Source of the DNA: a virus | IMG/VR virus record: IMGVR_UViG_3300045977_000095 | Location: 1 to 37,582 of that record | Direction: 5' to 3' (one strand) | Length of the DNA stretch: 37,582 bases | The notes under the pieces: generated by a model | Databases searched by the model: none | What the model saw: only the letters and a program-made list of their open reading frames with translations | Told to the model about the DNA's origin: nothing | Shown here: positions 3,628-37,582 of the stretch, in pieces | Layout: each line of letters starts with the position of its first letter | Position numbering within the stretch: position 1 is the first letter of the stretch | Position numbers and translations under genes: made by a program

Positions 3628-3972
3628 ATGAACCAAGATGGTTTGACAGATGATGAACTCGCGGAAGCGGTTGTGATTATGCGTGAGGATAAGGCTCGGT
3701 TTTTAGCGGCACTGGAAGCCGATCCGCCCCATATGGCGGAAGAAGAGCTACGGAAAGCAATCAGCCATGCCTACTATATTCTCTATGAAATGACGGACGT
3801 TCCCCACATTGTAAAACTTACCGAAGATGAATTGAAAGTTTTTAACCATCTTCTTGAATGCCATCTATATGACGTCATGGAAGGGCTGTACGCCCACACG
3901 ATGAGACAAAAAATTGCCCGCCGTATTCACATTCAACATCCGACTGCCAACACCAAAGGAGGCACTGCATGA
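3628..3972 (+). CDS. Hypothetical acidic helical protein
   Basis: A 114-residue protein starting at ATG 3628 with GGAGT eight bases upstream. The N-terminal two thirds are acidic (MNQDGLTDDELAEA, then DPPHMAEEELRKA); the end is basic and histidine-rich (RRIHIQHPT). Its codon use looks slightly more AT-rich than its neighbours. It lies between the exonuclease and Bet genes and its stop overlaps the Bet start. No family recognised. Confidence 0.65.
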   Translation: MNQDGLTDDELAEAVVIMREDKARFLAALEADPPHMAEEELRKAISHAYYILYEMTDVPHIVKLTEDELKVFNHLLECHLYDVMEGLYAHTMRQKIARRIHIQHPTANTKGGTA

Positions 3973-5099
3973 CGACCGCTGTAGCGACGCGAGAGAAACG
4001 CGCCCTGGTACCGAAGTGGACGAAAGCCCAGCTCGAGCTGTTGAAACGCACCGTGGCTAAAGGTACCACGGACGATGAATTCAGCCTGTTCGTCTATACC
4101 TGCAAGCGGACCGGATTGGATCCGTTCATCAAGCAAATTTACGCCATTAAGCGATGGGATAGCCAATCCAATTCCTATGTGATGGCCATTCAGACCGGAA
4201 TAGACGGCTACCGGCTGATTGCCTCACGGACCGGAGAGCTGGCCGGCATCGATGAGCCGGAATTCGTGACAGATCCAAACACCCCCGATCATCCGATTAT
4301 GGCAACCGTGATGGTGTACCGTTTTGTCAACGGGGAGAAATGTAAGTTTGTCGGCCAGGCGCGATGGGCTGAATTCGTGCAGAAGAACAAGGAGGGTGAA
4401 CCCACTGGCCGATGGAAGGATATGCCGTTCAATCAATTGGCGAAATGCGCGGAAGCCGCCGCCCATCGCAAAGCATTCCCACATGACCTTGGCTGCGTAG
4501 TGGCCAATGAGGAAATGCCGGTTATCGATATTGAGGCGGTCCAGGAAACGACCGCCACGCCGGCCGAGCAACCGAAAGCAGAGGATATGACAGCCGGGGT
4601 CCTCGTGGCCTACTCCCCTGGTGACAGCAAGTCGAAACCCAAGAAGCCACATCGGTTCACGTTCAAGACCGACGCCGGCGCGGAAATCACCTTGACGGCC
4701 TGGGAGCGGCCGGAAACGCTTCGAGGGGACACCATGCCGCTTGGCCGGCGCTGCCAGTTCAAGTATGAGGAGAAGCGGAACGAGAAGAACCCCAACAGCC
4801 CCTACCGCAACCTCACCCATTTTGCCTTGGAGGAAGTGACCCCGGAGAGCGAGCCTGAATCGGGCAATTCCGATGGCCAGGCGGCGCCGGCGGACGAGGG
4901 AGCCACGGCGCCGGGCGATGACCGCACAACGGATATGCGCGCACTGCTGGACGAGAACAAAAACAATCCGCAGATGCTGCAGGATTTGTACAGCACGTTG
5001 AGCGCCGACATGAAGAAGCACGGCTACACCGAGGAGGAACGCAAGCGGGTTCAGGATCATTTCCTTAAACTCAAACAGGAGGCCGAGAAGAAGAAATGA
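3969..5099 (+). CDS. bet: Bet-type single-strand annealing protein with C-terminal extension
   Basis: This 376-residue protein resembles lambda Bet, which anneals complementary single strands during phage recombination. The Bet core is about residues 15-190, with GLDPFIKQIYAI and MAIQTGIDGYRLIA matching the conserved GLNPW/VGVDGW region of lambda Bet, and a C-terminal LAKCAEAAAHRKAFP helix. Lambda Bet is about 260 residues, so the part beyond about 215 is extra. It contains a basic beta-rich segment (HRFTFKTDAGAEITL, FKYEEKRNEKNPNSPYRN) and an acidic linker followed by a charged helical tail. The ribosome site AAAGGAGG is strong. The stop overlaps the resolvase start. Confidence 0.9.
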   Translation: MTTAVATREKRALVPKWTKAQLELLKRTVAKGTTDDEFSLFVYTCKRTGLDPFIKQIYAIKRWDSQSNSYVMAIQTGIDGYRLIASRTGELAGIDEPEFVTDPNTPDHPIMATVMVYRFVNGEKCKFVGQARWAEFVQKNKEGEPTGRWKDMPFNQLAKCAEAAAHRKAFPHDLGCVVANEEMPVIDIEAVQETTATPAEQPKAEDMTAGVLVAYSPGDSKSKPKKPHRFTFKTDAGAEITLTAWERPETLRGDTMPLGRRCQFKYEEKRNEKNPNSPYRNLTHFALEEVTPESEPESGNSDGQAAPADEGATAPGDDRTTDMRALLDENKNNPQMLQDLYSTLSADMKKHGYTEEERKRVQDHFLKLKQEAEKKK

Positions 5100-24310: not shown

Positions 24311-25882
24311 TTATCTCCTTCTCGGACGATACGACGGGATGTAGTGTTGGATGACGGCGACGACATTGGAATAGACGAGCTCAGCCGCCGCGCCGATAAC
24401 GGCATAGGTTCCTGCTTGTGCGTGCAGCCGCCGCGCCGCCCGCAGCCCAGCCGCTACGCCTGTCACCACATAGATGCCTGGATCCGCAACGAGTCGAAAT
24501 CCACGCCGCAGGGACGCGGCCGTTCCAGTCAGGGTATACACACCGGGATCCGCGAGGAGCCGAAGACCGCGCCGCAACGACGCCGCGACTCCGGTAATGA
24601 CATACGCGCCGGGATCTGCCACTAACCGAAAGCCTCTTCGCAGCGAGGCCGCGATGCCAGTGACGACATAGACGCCGGACTCCGCGGCCAACCGACGCGC
24701 CGATCGTAATGTCGCGGCAGTTCCCGTAATGCTATAGGTGCCTGGGACGGCTGCAAGCCGCGCCGCCCTCCGCAGAGACGCGGCGACTCCGGTAATCACA
24801 TATGCCCCAGGTGCAGCGGCGAGGAGAAATCCACGGCGCAGGGCCGCAGCAACGCCCGTGATGGTGTAGGAGCCGGGAACTGCAGCGAGCTTGCGATCCG
24901 CTCGCATGTTGGCCGTCGATCCGCTCAGGCTGTACGTGCCAGGGACCGCTGGCAATTTCAATGCTCGGCGCAGGGCCACACTGACTCCTGTGAGGACATA
25001 CACCCCAGTTACCGCGTCGATTTTTCGCGCGGCTCTGAGTCCGGACGCCGATCCGAGGATGTTGTACGTTCCGGGGCTCGCGTCCAGGGTGTAATGCGTG
25101 AGCGCGGAGGACGGCGCCGCCACCATGATCCGCGGCTGTTTGTATAGATCCCAGCGCGTCTCCGGGTGATACATCGCGGCAATTTCCGCCGCACTCAACG
25201 CGCGCATGTAGAGGCGCACGTCTTTTATGCTGCCCACAAACCAATTGGTTGATGCCGACGCCCCGATCTTAATGCCGTCCGAAGCGGTCAAGCTGCCCGG
25301 GTTGGCGTTCGTCCCAGGAGACCCATCGAGAACGCCGTCCACATACACGGCCATGGTGGTGCTGGACGTGCGGAGCCCGCAAATAAAATGCCACGCCCCG
25401 TTATTCACGGCCGTGGCGCCATCTAGTTGTGTACTGTTTGATGCTCCATCCTCGAAGAGGCGTACCACGCCGCCCCCATTCATCACATCGAAGCCGCTCC
25501 CGATACCGCCAGACGTGCGCTTCCGGACAAAGGTCTGTCGCGCGGTCGAGCTGGTTTTGATCCAAGCCGTCCAGGTATGGAGATTGGTCCCGAGATCGTG
25601 CAGGGCGTTATTGGGAAACTGGACCGCTTCATTGGTGCCGCCGAAGGTCAAGACCGGCCCCATGACGGCATCAAATTCCCAATCCGATGCTTCCATGTTC
25701 AGCAGATCGCCTTGGAGGCCGGTCGCGGCGCGGTCGAATAGAATCATGCCGCCGGGAATCATCGGCGCCCAGAAGCGCAGGTCTTGCGCCTGGCGCGATT
25801 CCCAATTCGGCACGAGGGGCACGACGGGAGGAGGCCCAAACGCCCGTACCTGGCGAACCAACGGCGGAATGGTGAGGATCAT
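24311..25882 (-). CDS. LamG-domain protein with eleven 22-residue repeats
   Basis: A 523-residue protein likely to sit on the virion surface. Residues about 35-245 form a concanavalin/LamG domain (FWAPMIPGGMILFDRA, LHTWTAWIKTSS, WHFICGLRTSSTTMAVYVDG, VGSIKDVRLYMRALS). Residues 267-508 are eleven tandem units of 22 residues with consensus PGxYxxTGxAAxLRxxxxL. A short Tyr/Arg tail (YIPSYRPRRR) closes it. The LamG domain probably binds glycan; the repeats are probably a stalk or Ig-like chain. It overlaps the upstream stop by ATGA. Confidence 0.8.
   Translation of the reverse strand: MILTIPPLVRQVRAFGPPPVVPLVPNWESRQAQDLRFWAPMIPGGMILFDRAATGLQGDLLNMEASDWEFDAVMGPVLTFGGTNEAVQFPNNALHDLGTNLHTWTAWIKTSSTARQTFVRKRTSGGIGSGFDVMNGGGVVRLFEDGASNSTQLDGATAVNNGAWHFICGLRTSSTTMAVYVDGVLDGSPGTNANPGSLTASDGIKIGASASTNWFVGSIKDVRLYMRALSAAEIAAMYHPETRWDLYKQPRIMVAAPSSALTHYTLDASPGTYNILGSASGLRAARKIDAVTGVYVLTGVSVALRRALKLPAVPGTYSLSGSTANMRADRKLAAVPGSYTITGVAAALRRGFLLAAAPGAYVITGVAASLRRAARLAAVPGTYSITGTAATLRSARRLAAESGVYVVTGIAASLRRGFRLVADPGAYVITGVAASLRRGLRLLADPGVYTLTGTAASLRRGFRLVADPGIYVVTGVAAGLRAARRLHAQAGTYAVIGAAAELVYSNVVAVIQHYIPSYRPRRR
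24359..25084 (-). repeat. Eleven in-frame 66-base repeats (22 codons each)
   Basis: Translation of this stretch gives eleven units of exactly 22 residues. Key positions are G, Y, TG and LR (for example PGAYVITGVAASLRR). Units 5 and 8 share the run PGAYVITGVAASLRR, and units 7-10 are nearly the same, so part of the array looks recently duplicated, whereas units 1-3 have diverged. There is no spacer between units. Confidence 0.85.
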
Positions 25883-32116: not shown

Positions 32117-34402
32117 TTATCCACTCCCCGCCGTTGCCGGCTCGCGTCGATGCCCGCCCTTTGGGCTCGCCGCTTCATAGGATGGCTCCATGGATCCGCT
32201 AGGTTCTTCCGGTTGACGATTCGACGGCCCACCTGAAGGCGGCCCGGGAGGGGGCGGCCCACCGGGTGGCGGTCCTCCGGATTGCGGCATCCCACCTTGA
32301 CCCGCCATGGCTTTCTGCATTTCCTCCTGCATCAACTGCATGCCGTGCTGTTCAACGTGTTTCAGATAGATGGCTTGCCACTCGGCCGGCAGTCGCATGA
32401 AGGCATCGGTCTTGGCAAATTTCTTGTGTGACCAAATATGGATGAGATGGTTGTCGATCTGCGGGCGGAAGCGCAGGGCGGACATGGTGATCGTTTGCAC
32501 TTCTGTCTGTGCTTGCTGCGCTTGCATTGCTGCCTGTTCCATCATCGCCGGATCCTGCAGAGCGCCAGCCTGTTCTTGCATCGCATTCACTTGCTGTACC
32601 ATCCCCGGCAAGTCGTATTTATTCGCAATCTCAATGAAGGCTTGCTCCTCTTTCGCCGCGTCCTTCATGTCGTAATCGGACTGGTTGTCGTACTTGCTCA
32701 TCCCAACCGAACGCAGTATTTGCGCACGGTTGGCCGGATCCAGATGATCGACCAGGCCCTTCGCGATCAGATTGTCGAGGATGGATTGTTCGGTGAGAGA
32801 AGAGGTCGGCTTGGACGAGCCGGCTTCACATTGCATAGTCAGCGTCGACAGGTCCTCATCTTTGAATCGATCGACTTCCCATTCCCCATGGGGACCCAGC
32901 ATCCGCGCCATCTCCACGGCATTCATGTATTCCCTTGTCAGCGCCGTCACTTGCACGGCCCACATGATCATGCCGTTTTCCCACCGCTGAAAGAGCGGCC
33001 CCCATCGTGATTGTCCGCGTTCGATGAGAAGTTGTAAGGCGTAACCAGCGGTTACACCGGGCGGCTGATTGCCCTTGAGGAGATCGAACACGCTGGCGAT
33101 CTCTTCCATGTCGGCATCGATCTTGTCCAACCATTGCGGCAGCGAGGATGGAATGTTTTCCCCGGGCAGCCGCTTGGGGTCTCCGGAAGCCGTGGCGGAA
33201 ATCTGAATCGACTTCAGCACCGCGCCAGGTTGGCCAGAGAACCCTTCAACATCGGTCCCAAACGGCACAATCCACACCGGGTTGGCCGAGCGCATCGTGA
33301 TCAATTCGATCAGCGATTCAAGCCGGTTCCGTTGGGTTTGTTTGGGCGCCAGATCGTTGGCGACAGTCGTGCCGATGCCGGATCCTGGAATGGGATCCAT
33401 GATGAATTGCGAGATCGGCAGGAATTTATTCCCGTTATGATCCCGACAATGCAGGGTATCCCGTTCCAGTAACGTGCTGCCGCCCATAATGGCGTAGCAG
33501 CCATCCGGGTAGTCATCATCCGGCATCCGGACATACCAGTATTCGCTGGCATGCGGCCGGCCACCTTTCCCGAACGAGGTACTGAGCCCGGCGCCGGACC
33601 CCATGAACGCGAGCGCATTGGAGTAATGCTCGCTCATGGTGGTGGAACTGCCTTGCTGTACCTCTTTGCCTTTCTTTCCGTACTGTCTCGGGAAATACGA
33701 GAGGGGCCGACTCTTGATGATCAAGGCTTCCGACTGTGAGACCCACTGCGTCACGGTCCAGTCGGAGTAGGTTTCAAACGGGGAGGCAATCTCGGTTCGC
33801 ACGGATCCGGCTTTGTACTTCTCCGTCTTCAGAATCCCATCCTCACCCATCGCATATTGGAAATTGCCGGAGGCGCACTTGGGACACCCTTCCTCGAATT
33901 CTGATTGCGGCCCTTCGTGCTGGCAGATCTGACAAGCGTTGAGAGGGATTTCATAAAAGTTTCCGCCGGCCGCATCGTAAAAGTTTGCGAGGTAGCCGTT
34001 GCCGGTGTACACAATCCAGTTGGCAAGCATCTGCCGCCACTCCCGGAAATGCGTGGCTTCCTTCAACCGCTCCACCAATTGTGTCGCGGTTTCGGCCTTG
34101 GTCTTTTCAGGTTCATCGTTTGGATCCAGCGCGCGCCACTGCAGTTGCGGTTCGACGCGCAGGACCAGCGAGGAGAGGGCATCGAGGATAGAGCGGAATT
34201 TATTCGTAACCGGTGTTGGCACCCACGATTTGATTTTCTTTTGACGGAAGGCGCGGCCGGTTCCATCCCACACGATCCATTGATGGCCCTGCCGATAGAG
34301 GAGGTTGCGGTACCAATCACGTTCATGGCCATACCGGAGATGGTGATATTCTTTCTCGCACAACTGAATATGAGCGATTAACTCTTGATCTGTCTTGCTC
34401 AT
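32117..34402 (-). CDS. Portal protein with an inserted zinc-ribbon-like motif
   Basis: A 761-residue protein, the size of P22-type portals. It begins SKTDQELIAHIQLCEKEYHH and has the portal-type pattern GHERDWYRNLLYRQGHQW, VTNKFRSILDALSS and later ANDLAPKQTQRNRLESLIE. C157, C160, C173 and C176 (CQIC and CPKC) look like a zinc site. The C-terminal 130 residues include a helical part and a Pro/Gly tail (PPPGGPPPPGPPSGGP). It forms the dodecameric DNA channel at one capsid vertex. ATG 34402 follows a terminator's T-run with no ribosome site; GTG 34447, in frame, would put that hairpin inside the coding region. Confidence 0.85.
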   Translation of the reverse strand: MSKTDQELIAHIQLCEKEYHHLRYGHERDWYRNLLYRQGHQWIVWDGTGRAFRQKKIKSWVPTPVTNKFRSILDALSSLVLRVEPQLQWRALDPNDEPEKTKAETATQLVERLKEATHFREWRQMLANWIVYTGNGYLANFYDAAGGNFYEIPLNACQICQHEGPQSEFEEGCPKCASGNFQYAMGEDGILKTEKYKAGSVRTEIASPFETYSDWTVTQWVSQSEALIIKSRPLSYFPRQYGKKGKEVQQGSSTTMSEHYSNALAFMGSGAGLSTSFGKGGRPHASEYWYVRMPDDDYPDGCYAIMGGSTLLERDTLHCRDHNGNKFLPISQFIMDPIPGSGIGTTVANDLAPKQTQRNRLESLIELITMRSANPVWIVPFGTDVEGFSGQPGAVLKSIQISATASGDPKRLPGENIPSSLPQWLDKIDADMEEIASVFDLLKGNQPPGVTAGYALQLLIERGQSRWGPLFQRWENGMIMWAVQVTALTREYMNAVEMARMLGPHGEWEVDRFKDEDLSTLTMQCEAGSSKPTSSLTEQSILDNLIAKGLVDHLDPANRAQILRSVGMSKYDNQSDYDMKDAAKEEQAFIEIANKYDLPGMVQQVNAMQEQAGALQDPAMMEQAAMQAQQAQTEVQTITMSALRFRPQIDNHLIHIWSHKKFAKTDAFMRLPAEWQAIYLKHVEQHGMQLMQEEMQKAMAGQGGMPQSGGPPPGGPPPPGPPSGGPSNRQPEEPSGSMEPSYEAASPKGGHRREPATAGSG

Positions 34403-34440
34403 AAAAAAAGGCCACCCCCGGTTTCCCGGGAATGGCCCTT
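34403..34440 (-). terminator. Rho-independent terminator abutting the portal start
   Basis: On the minus strand GGCCA-TT-CCCGG pairs with CCGGG-GG-TGGCC around a GAAA loop, followed by seven T and then the portal ATG. It lies 30 bases past the stop of the Com-like gene. The stable GAAA tetraloop and U-run are textbook. It would stop transcription from the packaging genes unless antiterminated, and it also fills the portal's leader. Confidence 0.75.
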
Positions 34441-34470
34441 GGGTCACAGCTTCGCGCCGTTTACGAGGCT

Positions 34471-35547: not shown

Positions 35548-35777
35548 GGCGTACAGATCCCTTTCTCCGTCCGGCGCGGAGAATCCGGCCCTTCCTCGTA
35601 ATCGAATGCTTGCATGGAATACAAACCCGACGTCAACATGGTCCGGCCTTGAATCCGCCAGAAGATCCGCTCGAACCGAGGATTGATTGTCGGAATAGTG
35701 ATCGATGGTGGCGCCGGCTCATCGGCCTGTACTACCGAGACTGGACGACCTTGCTGATCCCACAGGTAGGCTATCAT
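35544..35777 (-). CDS. Hypothetical protein after the terminase gene
   Basis: A 77-residue protein, the ATG overlapping the terminase stop by four bases. The sequence is beta-rich with Trp (MIAYLWDQQGRPVSVVQADE, FERIFWRIQGRTMLTSGLY). No motif was recognised. Tight coupling suggests a role in packaging or head assembly. Confidence 0.6.
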   Translation of the reverse strand: MIAYLWDQQGRPVSVVQADEPAPPSITIPTINPRFERIFWRIQGRTMLTSGLYSMQAFDYEEGPDSPRRTEKGICTP

Positions 35778-36922
35778 GAGAAAAATTCATCGCCTCCGTC
35801 ATCGTCGAGTTTCTTCTTCTGAATCTCCGCATTCGTCATATGCAGCGTGGACGCTTGGAGCGCACTCGCGGCCTTCCCGTCGATCTTGAAACAGTGGATG
35901 TAGATGTACCGCAAGGCGTCCATGACGTGCTCGAACCAGCCGTCTTTCTTCGCGCTATTCTTGAGCCGGCCTTCCGTATCCTTGCCGGTCGCCGTGACGT
36001 CCAGCTTATAGCCGCCGGCGAACCCATCGATCAGATCCTCATTGTCTCGGTAATCGATCGCCAAAGCCGGATCGCCATCTTCCCGCACGATCAATGACCG
36101 CTCCATCATCTTCCAGCCCTCTTCATTCGAAGACCAGCGATAGTGGAGGTTGATATGGAATTCCACGAGGAGAATCTGTGTGGTCGCGCCTTTGTCCGTT
36201 TCCTGTGCGCCGGCCGGATCTCCACAATCAATGATTTCCGCGCCTGGGTAGCGCATCTGGGTTTCAGCAATCACATAGGGCGCGAAGTCCCAAATGGTCC
36301 GTTGGGTTTCGATGATCGACCGTAAGACATGAATGCGATTCTTCTTGGTCTTTTGCGCCCACACACAGGATGGATGGCCTCTCCCAAAGTCCCAGCCGCG
36401 GATGATCGGGAGGGAAGGATCATACTTGAGCGCCTTGACGTGCATATCCCGGTTGAAGGTGGGGAAGAACGGCTCGCCTTCAGAAATCGTGAAGTCGATT
36501 TCCCGCTCCCGGTTCCAATCCCGGGTACTTGATTTCTCTTTTTCTTTTTTGATCCACGCATCCCCTTCCGGGGTCCCCGGCCGGAAGCGGGGATCAGCTG
36601 AATAATGGACAACGACGACGCGCCAATTCTTCGGGGTCGTCCAGACCCACACGCCGGGACTCTTTTGCTTCGCATCGATCGGGATCTTGACGCCGTTGAG
36701 GACATGCGCGGGGATCCCGGCAGGCTTGAGCGTTTTCATGACCCCGCCCATATCAGAGAGATCCACCGCGTCCGGTTCGAGCCGCCGCGTCTTTTCACAG
36801 GAGCGGCAATACGTATACAGGCCGTCCTTCGAGGCCGCATTCTTTTTGAAGTCCGCCGCCGGCAGCTTATACTGACAGGCCGAACAGACTTTCCATTGGG
36901 GTTCCGTCTCGGTTGGTATCAC
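35774..36922 (-). CDS. Terminase large-subunit nuclease domain, ATPase half absent
   Basis: A 382-residue protein. GTG 36922 is chosen because GAAGGA precedes it and the longer frame upstream is unlike protein. An N-terminal zinc motif has C13, C16, C39 and C42. A segment from about residue 90 to 155 (VVVHYSADPRFRPG, REIDFTISEGEPFFPTF) matches the link between ATPase and nuclease parts of large terminases. The RNase H-like nuclease follows, with D178 in IIRGWDFG, D232/D235 in DCGDPAG and D335 in EHVMDALRYI. No Walker A or B is present here, so a motor ATPase must be encoded elsewhere, for example beyond the right edge. Confidence 0.8.
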   Translation of the reverse strand: MIPTETEPQWKVCSACQYKLPAADFKKNAASKDGLYTYCRSCEKTRRLEPDAVDLSDMGGVMKTLKPAGIPAHVLNGVKIPIDAKQKSPGVWVWTTPKNWRVVVVHYSADPRFRPGTPEGDAWIKKEKEKSSTRDWNREREIDFTISEGEPFFPTFNRDMHVKALKYDPSLPIIRGWDFGRGHPSCVWAQKTKKNRIHVLRSIIETQRTIWDFAPYVIAETQMRYPGAEIIDCGDPAGAQETDKGATTQILLVEFHINLHYRWSSNEEGWKMMERSLIVREDGDPALAIDYRDNEDLIDGFAGGYKLDVTATGKDTEGRLKNSAKKDGWFEHVMDALRYIYIHCFKIDGKAASALQASTLHMTNAEIQKKKLDDDGGDEFFS

Positions 36923-37055
36923 AGAGCCATTCCTTCGGGATGAGACAGGGCAGCGCAGTCTTGGGATGCTCGGATATATAGAAGTGTTCGGCACCGGCCG
37001 GTCGACCCGGCGCGGAGAGCTGACCAAATAAGGGCGAGAGCCAGGTAATCACCAT
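36867..37055 (-). CDS. Hypothetical small protein overlapping the terminase start
   Basis: A 62-residue frame starting ATG 37055, coupled by overlap (ATGGTGA) to the membrane peptide upstream. It has a hydrophobic start (VITWLSPLFGQL) and reads like protein through EHFYISEHPKTALPCLIPKEW. It overlaps the nuclease start by 56 bases. It is not recognised; the nuclease's own N-terminal zinc motif is in another frame. Confidence 0.45.
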   Translation of the reverse strand: MVITWLSPLFGQLSAPGRPAGAEHFYISEHPKTALPCLIPKEWLCDTNRDGTPMESLFGLSV

Positions 37056-37147
37056 GAACCCCACCACGCGGACAGCACACAGGTGATTGCTACCGCCAGC
37101 AGGATCCACTCAAGGCTGTGTTCCAGTGTCCAGGTGTTGTTGCTCAA
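37049..37147 (-). CDS. Putative 32-residue membrane peptide
   Basis: A short frame from TTG 37147 with AGGA five bases upstream. After a polar start it has one hydrophobic helix (WILLAVAITCVLSAWWG). It overlaps the stop of the zinc-ribbon gene and its own stop overlaps the next ATG. Its shortness and TTG start make it tentative. Confidence 0.35.
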   Translation of the reverse strand: MSNNTWTLEHSLEWILLAVAITCVLSAWWGSW

Positions 37148-37463
37148 GGGCTTCCTGCTTCTTGCGATGATACTCACGTTGATACTCGCGTTGATACGCC
37201 CGATGTTCCTCCGTGCGCCGGTAGAACTTCATGTATTCCCGACGCTGTTTGGTTTTCTCTGCGGCCGTTTCAGACGGTGGCACGCCACCACGGACCCCTT
37301 GCCCGACAGGGCGCCCGCCTGGGTGCGGATCTTCCTCAGGACGGTACTCCCGATACGGACTTGTTGGCGGGAGATAGTCCGAGCGATTGCCGCAGTTCAG
37401 ACAGCGTTCTTCGACGTGATCCCGATGCATGAAGCCGTTGCAGCGCGGACAGCTTTTCACCAC
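37110..37463 (-). CDS. Zinc-ribbon protein with a basic helical tail
   Basis: A 117-residue protein starting with a GTG pair at 37463, overlapping the preceding stop. A zinc ribbon is formed by SCPRCNG and RCLNCGN (C5, C8, C21, C24). The C-terminal half is a long basic Tyr/Arg/Glu-rich helix with repeated REY motifs (RAYQREYQREYHRKK). Such tails accompany phage DNA-binding or small-terminase-like proteins, but no function can be fixed. It precedes the terminase nuclease. Confidence 0.6.
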   Translation of the reverse strand: MVKSCPRCNGFMHRDHVEERCLNCGNRSDYLPPTSPYREYRPEEDPHPGGRPVGQGVRGGVPPSETAAEKTKQRREYMKFYRRTEEHRAYQREYQREYHRKKQEALEQQHLDTGTQP

Positions 37464-37582
37464 TCCCCCGCAATCAGCCCTATTTGGATCCCTCCGGCAC
37501 AGGCCGTGGAGATATAAATCGCTTGGCCGGCTTCCCCCAGCGCCGGCGCCATCGCGCGCAAGCTGGCCTTGGCTTCCGGTTG
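37457..37582 (-). CDS. Partial gene at the right edge (C-terminal 41 residues)
   Basis: The frame is open to the window edge and stops at 37457, overlapping the zinc-ribbon gene start. The visible end is hydrophobic (GQAIYISTACAGGIQIGLI) with a preceding Ala-rich segment. It is too short to identify; it could be the C-terminus of any gene upstream of the terminase nuclease, including the missing packaging proteins. Confidence 0.5.
   Translation of the reverse strand, partial: QPEAKASLRAMAPALGEAGQAIYISTACAGGIQIGLIAGEW

Follow-up and report, generated by a model that had tools for sequence, protein, structure and literature searches.

Where does the ATPase of a large terminase (TerL) lie when its nuclease half stands in an open frame of its own, and do the two parts still make one motor? 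The question is raised by the right-hand part of a linear virus contig of 37,582 bases (IMG/VR record IMGVR_UViG_3300045977_000095), whose whole length is called the window in what follows. In the well-studied tailed phages TerL is a single chain, and it is treated as a hallmark and used as a marker gene. A sequence-only reading of the window had proposed that the motor is split here into two polypeptides, possibly with zinc-binding parts forming the joint, or with an intron or insertion between the halves. Our analysis indicates that the locus very probably encodes a two-gene large terminase that works as a reassembled motor, and we infer both the physical reassembly of the halves and packaging from the comparisons described below.

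The nuclease half occupies the minus strand, in an open frame at positions 35774-37027 (417 codons), whose likely start is a GTG at 36922 with AAGGA just upstream, giving a gene at 35774-36922 (-) and a protein of 382 aa. In a PHROG search, residues 131-383 of the 417-codon frame matched the terminase large subunit (phrog_2, E 1e-11), and the RNase H-type nuclease core (35888-36415, -) carries the acidic triad D178, D235, and D335 (protein numbering) as invariant columns. Foldseek paired the predicted structure, a low-confidence model (pLDDT 59), with the D6E large terminase (E 2e-5). Ahead of the core, positions 36473-36655 (-) hold the last strand of the ATPase fold (WRVVVVHYSADP) and the linker/subdomain II region (DWNRERE), as placed by alignment with T4 gp17 from about residue 308 and with two contiguous relatives, L048 and L053. 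A Pfam search of this ORF gave no family, a PDB profile search with the nuclease half gave no match, and its profile did not align directly with T4 gp17, so that its equivalence to gp17 rests on the contiguous relatives and the multiple alignment. Downstream in the same gene string is the portal gene (32117-34447, -; phrog_156 portal, E 2e-17); the same strand carries the head and tail genes as well, likewise below the terminase region, and an integrase-family gene is found at the left end of the window. Also on the minus strand, at 24311-25882, is a 523-aa ORF with several tandem repeats of about 28 residues (GxYxxxGxAAxLRRxxRLxAxPG) in its C-terminal half.

The ATPase gene is truncated by the right end of the window, where positions 37457-37582 (-) hold its 3' end, i.e., the last 41 codons and a TGA stop, which match the ATPase HMM. 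A near-identical contig, L003, differs from the window at 4 of 5,679 shared bases (99.93% identity) and reaches 5.6 kb farther upstream. Residues 172-212 of its ATPase ORF are 100% identical to the 41-codon frame of the window, and the full ORF (L003 5110-5748) encodes 212 aa with Walker A-like, Walker B, and coupling motifs (KSRQMLITW, FVSDECNFQ, and ISTA), ends with GLIAGEW directly before the stop, and matches phrog_2. A profile of nine such ATPase ORFs matches T4 gp17 over residues 141-288 (E 1.8e-6), and the AlphaFold model of the L003 ORF (pLDDT 76.5) superposes on the gp17 ATPase domain with a TM score of 0.71 and a Z score of 15.1; the ORF thus carries the three motifs of TerL in a RecA-like ATPase. 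Across the ATPase ORFs the deviant Walker A (K-x-R-Q...W), the D-E pair, and the serine of the coupling motif are invariant. These ORFs end about 7-22 aa past the coupling motif, eight of the nine close ones finishing with L..(G/A).W and a stop. Neither half has a Pfam match, so such viruses are easily annotated as lacking a TerL or as carrying a broken one. Farther upstream in L003, a helix-turn-helix ORF (3697-4149) is a weak candidate for a small terminase. The 4 differences between the window and L003 all fall at the start of a zinc-ribbon gene (window 37388-37455, L003 5750-5817), three of them within 4 bases.

A sequencing error that breaks a single frame is rejected, since two other assemblies, L002 and L003, show identical frames and the same break recurs in distant relatives. 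The sequence-only reading was borne out in its observation and in its split motor: the nuclease half has no Walker motif ahead of it in its frame, the four-Cys zinc motif and three small genes are present, a Walker-motif ORF without a nuclease lies upstream, ATPase and nuclease are separate in this virus and about 16 others, and no complete TerL was found elsewhere in the window or in ten split records tested. A contiguous terminase, which it had proposed to look for in relatives, occurs in L048 and L053, and the other subfamily members found are split.

Scans with each half, together with HMM searches of all ORFs, yielded about 17 species-level viruses, the window virus included, in which the ATPase ORF and the nuclease ORF after it are separate; the break is at the same loop in every case. 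The split set comprises the window virus (L003), L004, L005/L006, L041, L043, L044, L045, L046, L047, L049-L052, L055, L056, L057, L058-L060, L062, L065, and L082. Among the subfamily members found, an uninterrupted ORF occurs only in L048 (521 codons) and L053 (502 codons). These two IMG/VR sequences belong to the same subfamily by both halves and share with the split viruses the KSRRM/KSRQI Walker A and the linker motif HYS..P...W, but differ from them in having one ORF. Each of the ten split records tested, including those of 45-47 kb, holds one ATPase half and one nuclease half, and the place beside the portal gene is kept. Distances between the ATPase halves closely track those between the nuclease halves (Mantel r 0.91, 0 of 5,000 permutations), an agreement that fits partners but would be expected of any pair of genes from the same genome. 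Split sequences cluster on the tree, yet a single clade of them is rejected (AU test p 0.0002), which implies fission and/or re-fusion at the loop in no fewer than three changes. A single fission with two later re-fusions (L048 and L053) and several fissions are both compatible with this tree. Among genome contigs, the nuclease half retrieved no match, and the ATPase half retrieved one decayed copy, L082 (5435-7265), on contig JAALKI010000011 of a Nitrospirae MAG, with an ATPase gene, a broken nuclease gene, and no zinc finger; this suggests a Nitrospirota host for the split-terminase group.

The space between the stop of the ATPase gene and the start of the nuclease gene differs widely among these lineages, from an overlap of stop and start (L056) to 1.85 kb. 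It is 2 nt in L005 and 1,443 nt in L057. In L004 it measures about 244 nt and is taken up by an 84-aa gene; in L043 it is 1,029 nt long and contains a DNA methylase; in L047 it is 1,851 nt long and contains a glycosyltransferase-like gene; and in L065 it holds a DUF3310 gene. In the window it measures 534 nt and accommodates three small genes on the minus strand: a zinc-ribbon ORF of 117 aa (37110-37463), whose start overlaps the ATPase stop and which has no Pfam or PHROG family above the cut-off; a 42-aa single-TM peptide (37049-37177) with the hydrophobic stretch WILLAVAITCVLSAW; and a 62-aa ORF (36867-37055) that overlaps the nuclease gene start and has no PHROG match. That the cargo is unrelated from lineage to lineage, and that some lineages have no gap at all, speaks for two independent genes and against exons; both ORFs are complete, each with its own start and stop and no splicing signal. 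Frameshifting or hopping was also considered, and it is ruled out by gaps of up to 1.85 kb that hold other genes.

Alignment with T4 gp17 and the contiguous relatives places the junction at gp17 residues 299-307, in the loop that links the helix following the coupling motif to the strand behind it. The break thus falls within the ATPase domain and away from the ATPase-nuclease hinge; the nuclease ORF retains the last ATPase strand, subdomain II, and the hinge. We take the gp17 subdomain boundary to be at about residue 314. Compared with the single-chain TerL of the T4 gp17 type (2O0H, 3CPE; phrog_2), the ATPase motifs and fold, the RNase H-type nuclease residues, and the portal-adjacent place are the same, whereas here the protein comes from two genes, the cut falling after the coupling motif and before the last ATPase strand, and the Walker A is a deviant K-S-R-Q in place of the usual GK[ST]. 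In T4, ATPase and nuclease domains separated by loss of the hinge stay active but translocation is lost (PMC9958956), so function cannot be taken for granted in a split motor, although the present terminase is cut at another place. The natural cut would spare the hinge and leave the ATP cleft between two chains, as judged from the sequence alignment.

In the mechanism that we propose, gene 1 would supply the nucleotide-binding part of the ATPase, corresponding to about gp17 residues 100-300, with the deviant Walker A KSRQ, the Walker B DE, and the coupling motif. The remainder would come from gene 2: the final ATPase strand, subdomain II, the hinge, and the headful nuclease, to which this virus adds an N-terminal zinc finger. 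The halves would be translated separately from one late gene string and pair by complementation of the strand and the cleft, placing the ATP site at the polypeptide interface, and the paired halves would go on to work as a TerL ring of the usual kind at the portal. As to its origin, the break probably arose by gene fission in a surface loop, with other genes entering the gap afterwards and one group of lineages fusing an endonuclease VII-type zinc module to gene 2.

The zinc finger bears on a second account of that origin, one compatible with a two-gene terminase, in which insertion of an HNH/endonuclease VII gene made the break and left its zinc end fused to the nuclease half. The Cys4 motif CSACQYKLPAADFKKNAASKDGLYTYCRSC (36797-36886, -), conserved in eight lineages, does resemble the zinc modules of endonuclease VII/HNH proteins (phrog_1035, E 5e-8; also PHROG 2340, 2255, and 2633), and in L066 an HNH_3-AP2 endonuclease gene lies downstream of the ATPase ORF. 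The spacing C..C-F-D[GR]-C..C has very few carriers among 5,558 ORFs searched, nearly all of them in this nuclease family, and the module leads into the terminase linker and not into an HNH domain; Pfam gave no HNH or endonuclease VII match after it at E up to 1. The finger is present in the window virus, L004, L005, L041, L043, L044, L045, and L062, and is missing from L065 and L082 of the same subclade and from every remoter split relative. On the tree, which does not include L082, L065 diverges first within the subclade, and the remaining members group together with support of 97/96. The zinc-bearing viruses thus have a zinc-less split member branching below them, which places the addition of zinc after the split, and the other gaps hold no endonuclease. 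Most likely, the module joined a nuclease gene that was already separate, and an origin of the break by endonuclease insertion is unlikely. Since several split members have no zinc finger, it is not the necessary joint that the sequence-only reading had imagined; it is most probably a dispensable part acquired later. Small ORFs away from the terminase in L025 (4196-4621) and L061 (5740-6141) also carry this endonuclease VII-type Cys4 module.

The intron also raised by that reading fared no better. Spliced introns do occur in phage terL genes, those of ICP1 (PMC10448857) and the Jug phages (PMC12363816), and the two ORFs could in principle be exons of one terL joined by a self-splicing intron of this kind; the 534-nt gap of the window is large enough for a small one, an unclassified type remaining formally conceivable. 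Rfam, however, gave no family at the gathering score in 14 loci or in the window, and nothing intron-like over the gap at a relaxed threshold, and the 2-nt gap of L005 and the overlapping stop and start of L056 leave no room for an intron in those lineages. Lineages with 41-54% identity conserve the C-terminus of the ATPase, and the nuclease ORF has a start of its own and carries a zinc domain that is missing from contiguous TerLs. This makes splicing a very unlikely explanation: both the ICP1/Jug terL and the present one consist of separate genomic ORFs, but the former are rejoined by RNA splicing, while the split terminase described here shows no intron signal and in some lineages has no space for one.

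It is highly unlikely that one or both halves are decaying or non-packaging remnants in a virus that uses another terminase. The copy in the Nitrospirae MAG is visibly decayed, as such a history would have it, and most of the records are fragments; against this, the motif residues are invariant across the clade, the split pair is the only terminase in the 45-47 kb records, and the place beside the portal gene is retained. Post-translational joining of a fractured gene by a split intein, an arrangement for which split inteins between gene halves were reportedly described by Dassa in 2009 (a reference of PMC10448857), is extremely improbable, as no intein family was matched, zinc-less split relatives have as few as 16 residues ahead of the conserved strand, and the approximately 7-22 residues after the coupling motif leave no room for an N-intein.

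Returning to the two-gene terminase, its closest parallels include other phage enzymes that are split but functional, such as Aeh1 NrdA and gp43A/B of phage 25, with T4 gp60/gp39 as another split gene (PMC2988022). In these, too, one ancestral polypeptide is made as two, with reassembly thought or shown to occur. They are different enzymes, and their breaks trace to homing endonucleases or untranslated spacers, unlike the gaps here, which hold ordinary cargo genes or nothing. In the open-access literature searched, no TerL made from two genes with the cut inside the ATPase domain was reported, and the split, fragmented, or bipartite terminases found there were intron cases only. The break point may be regarded as a natural experiment on the motor, in which the hinge, which T4 cannot lose, is spared and the nucleotide-binding core is parted from subdomain II; purified halves would allow mix-and-match tests of the hinge, subdomain II, and the nuclease in force generation. 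A tentative and rather doubtful extension is that this is a stable, old motor design, with the ATP site across two chains and a subdomain II-hinge-nuclease piece that is separable and independently regulated or exchanged. If so, the nuclease piece might be recruited only for cutting, or might help to avoid TerL-sensing defences.

In L055 (1085-2791) the nuclease half has an additional C-terminal extension of about 250 residues in its open frame. L066 (5674-9345) has a split-type ATPase ORF, the endonuclease gene mentioned above, and then a 383-codon ORF without a nuclease HMM match, whose motifs GVFERSWID, GVDVGAG, and KHGDLVV hint at a divergent TerL nuclease. Finally, L019 (1248-3515) carries a contiguous TerL ORF of 756 codons with an apparent intein-like insert at the P-loop (EGALS|CLTPWTEV ... 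VGVIHHN|SGKTT).
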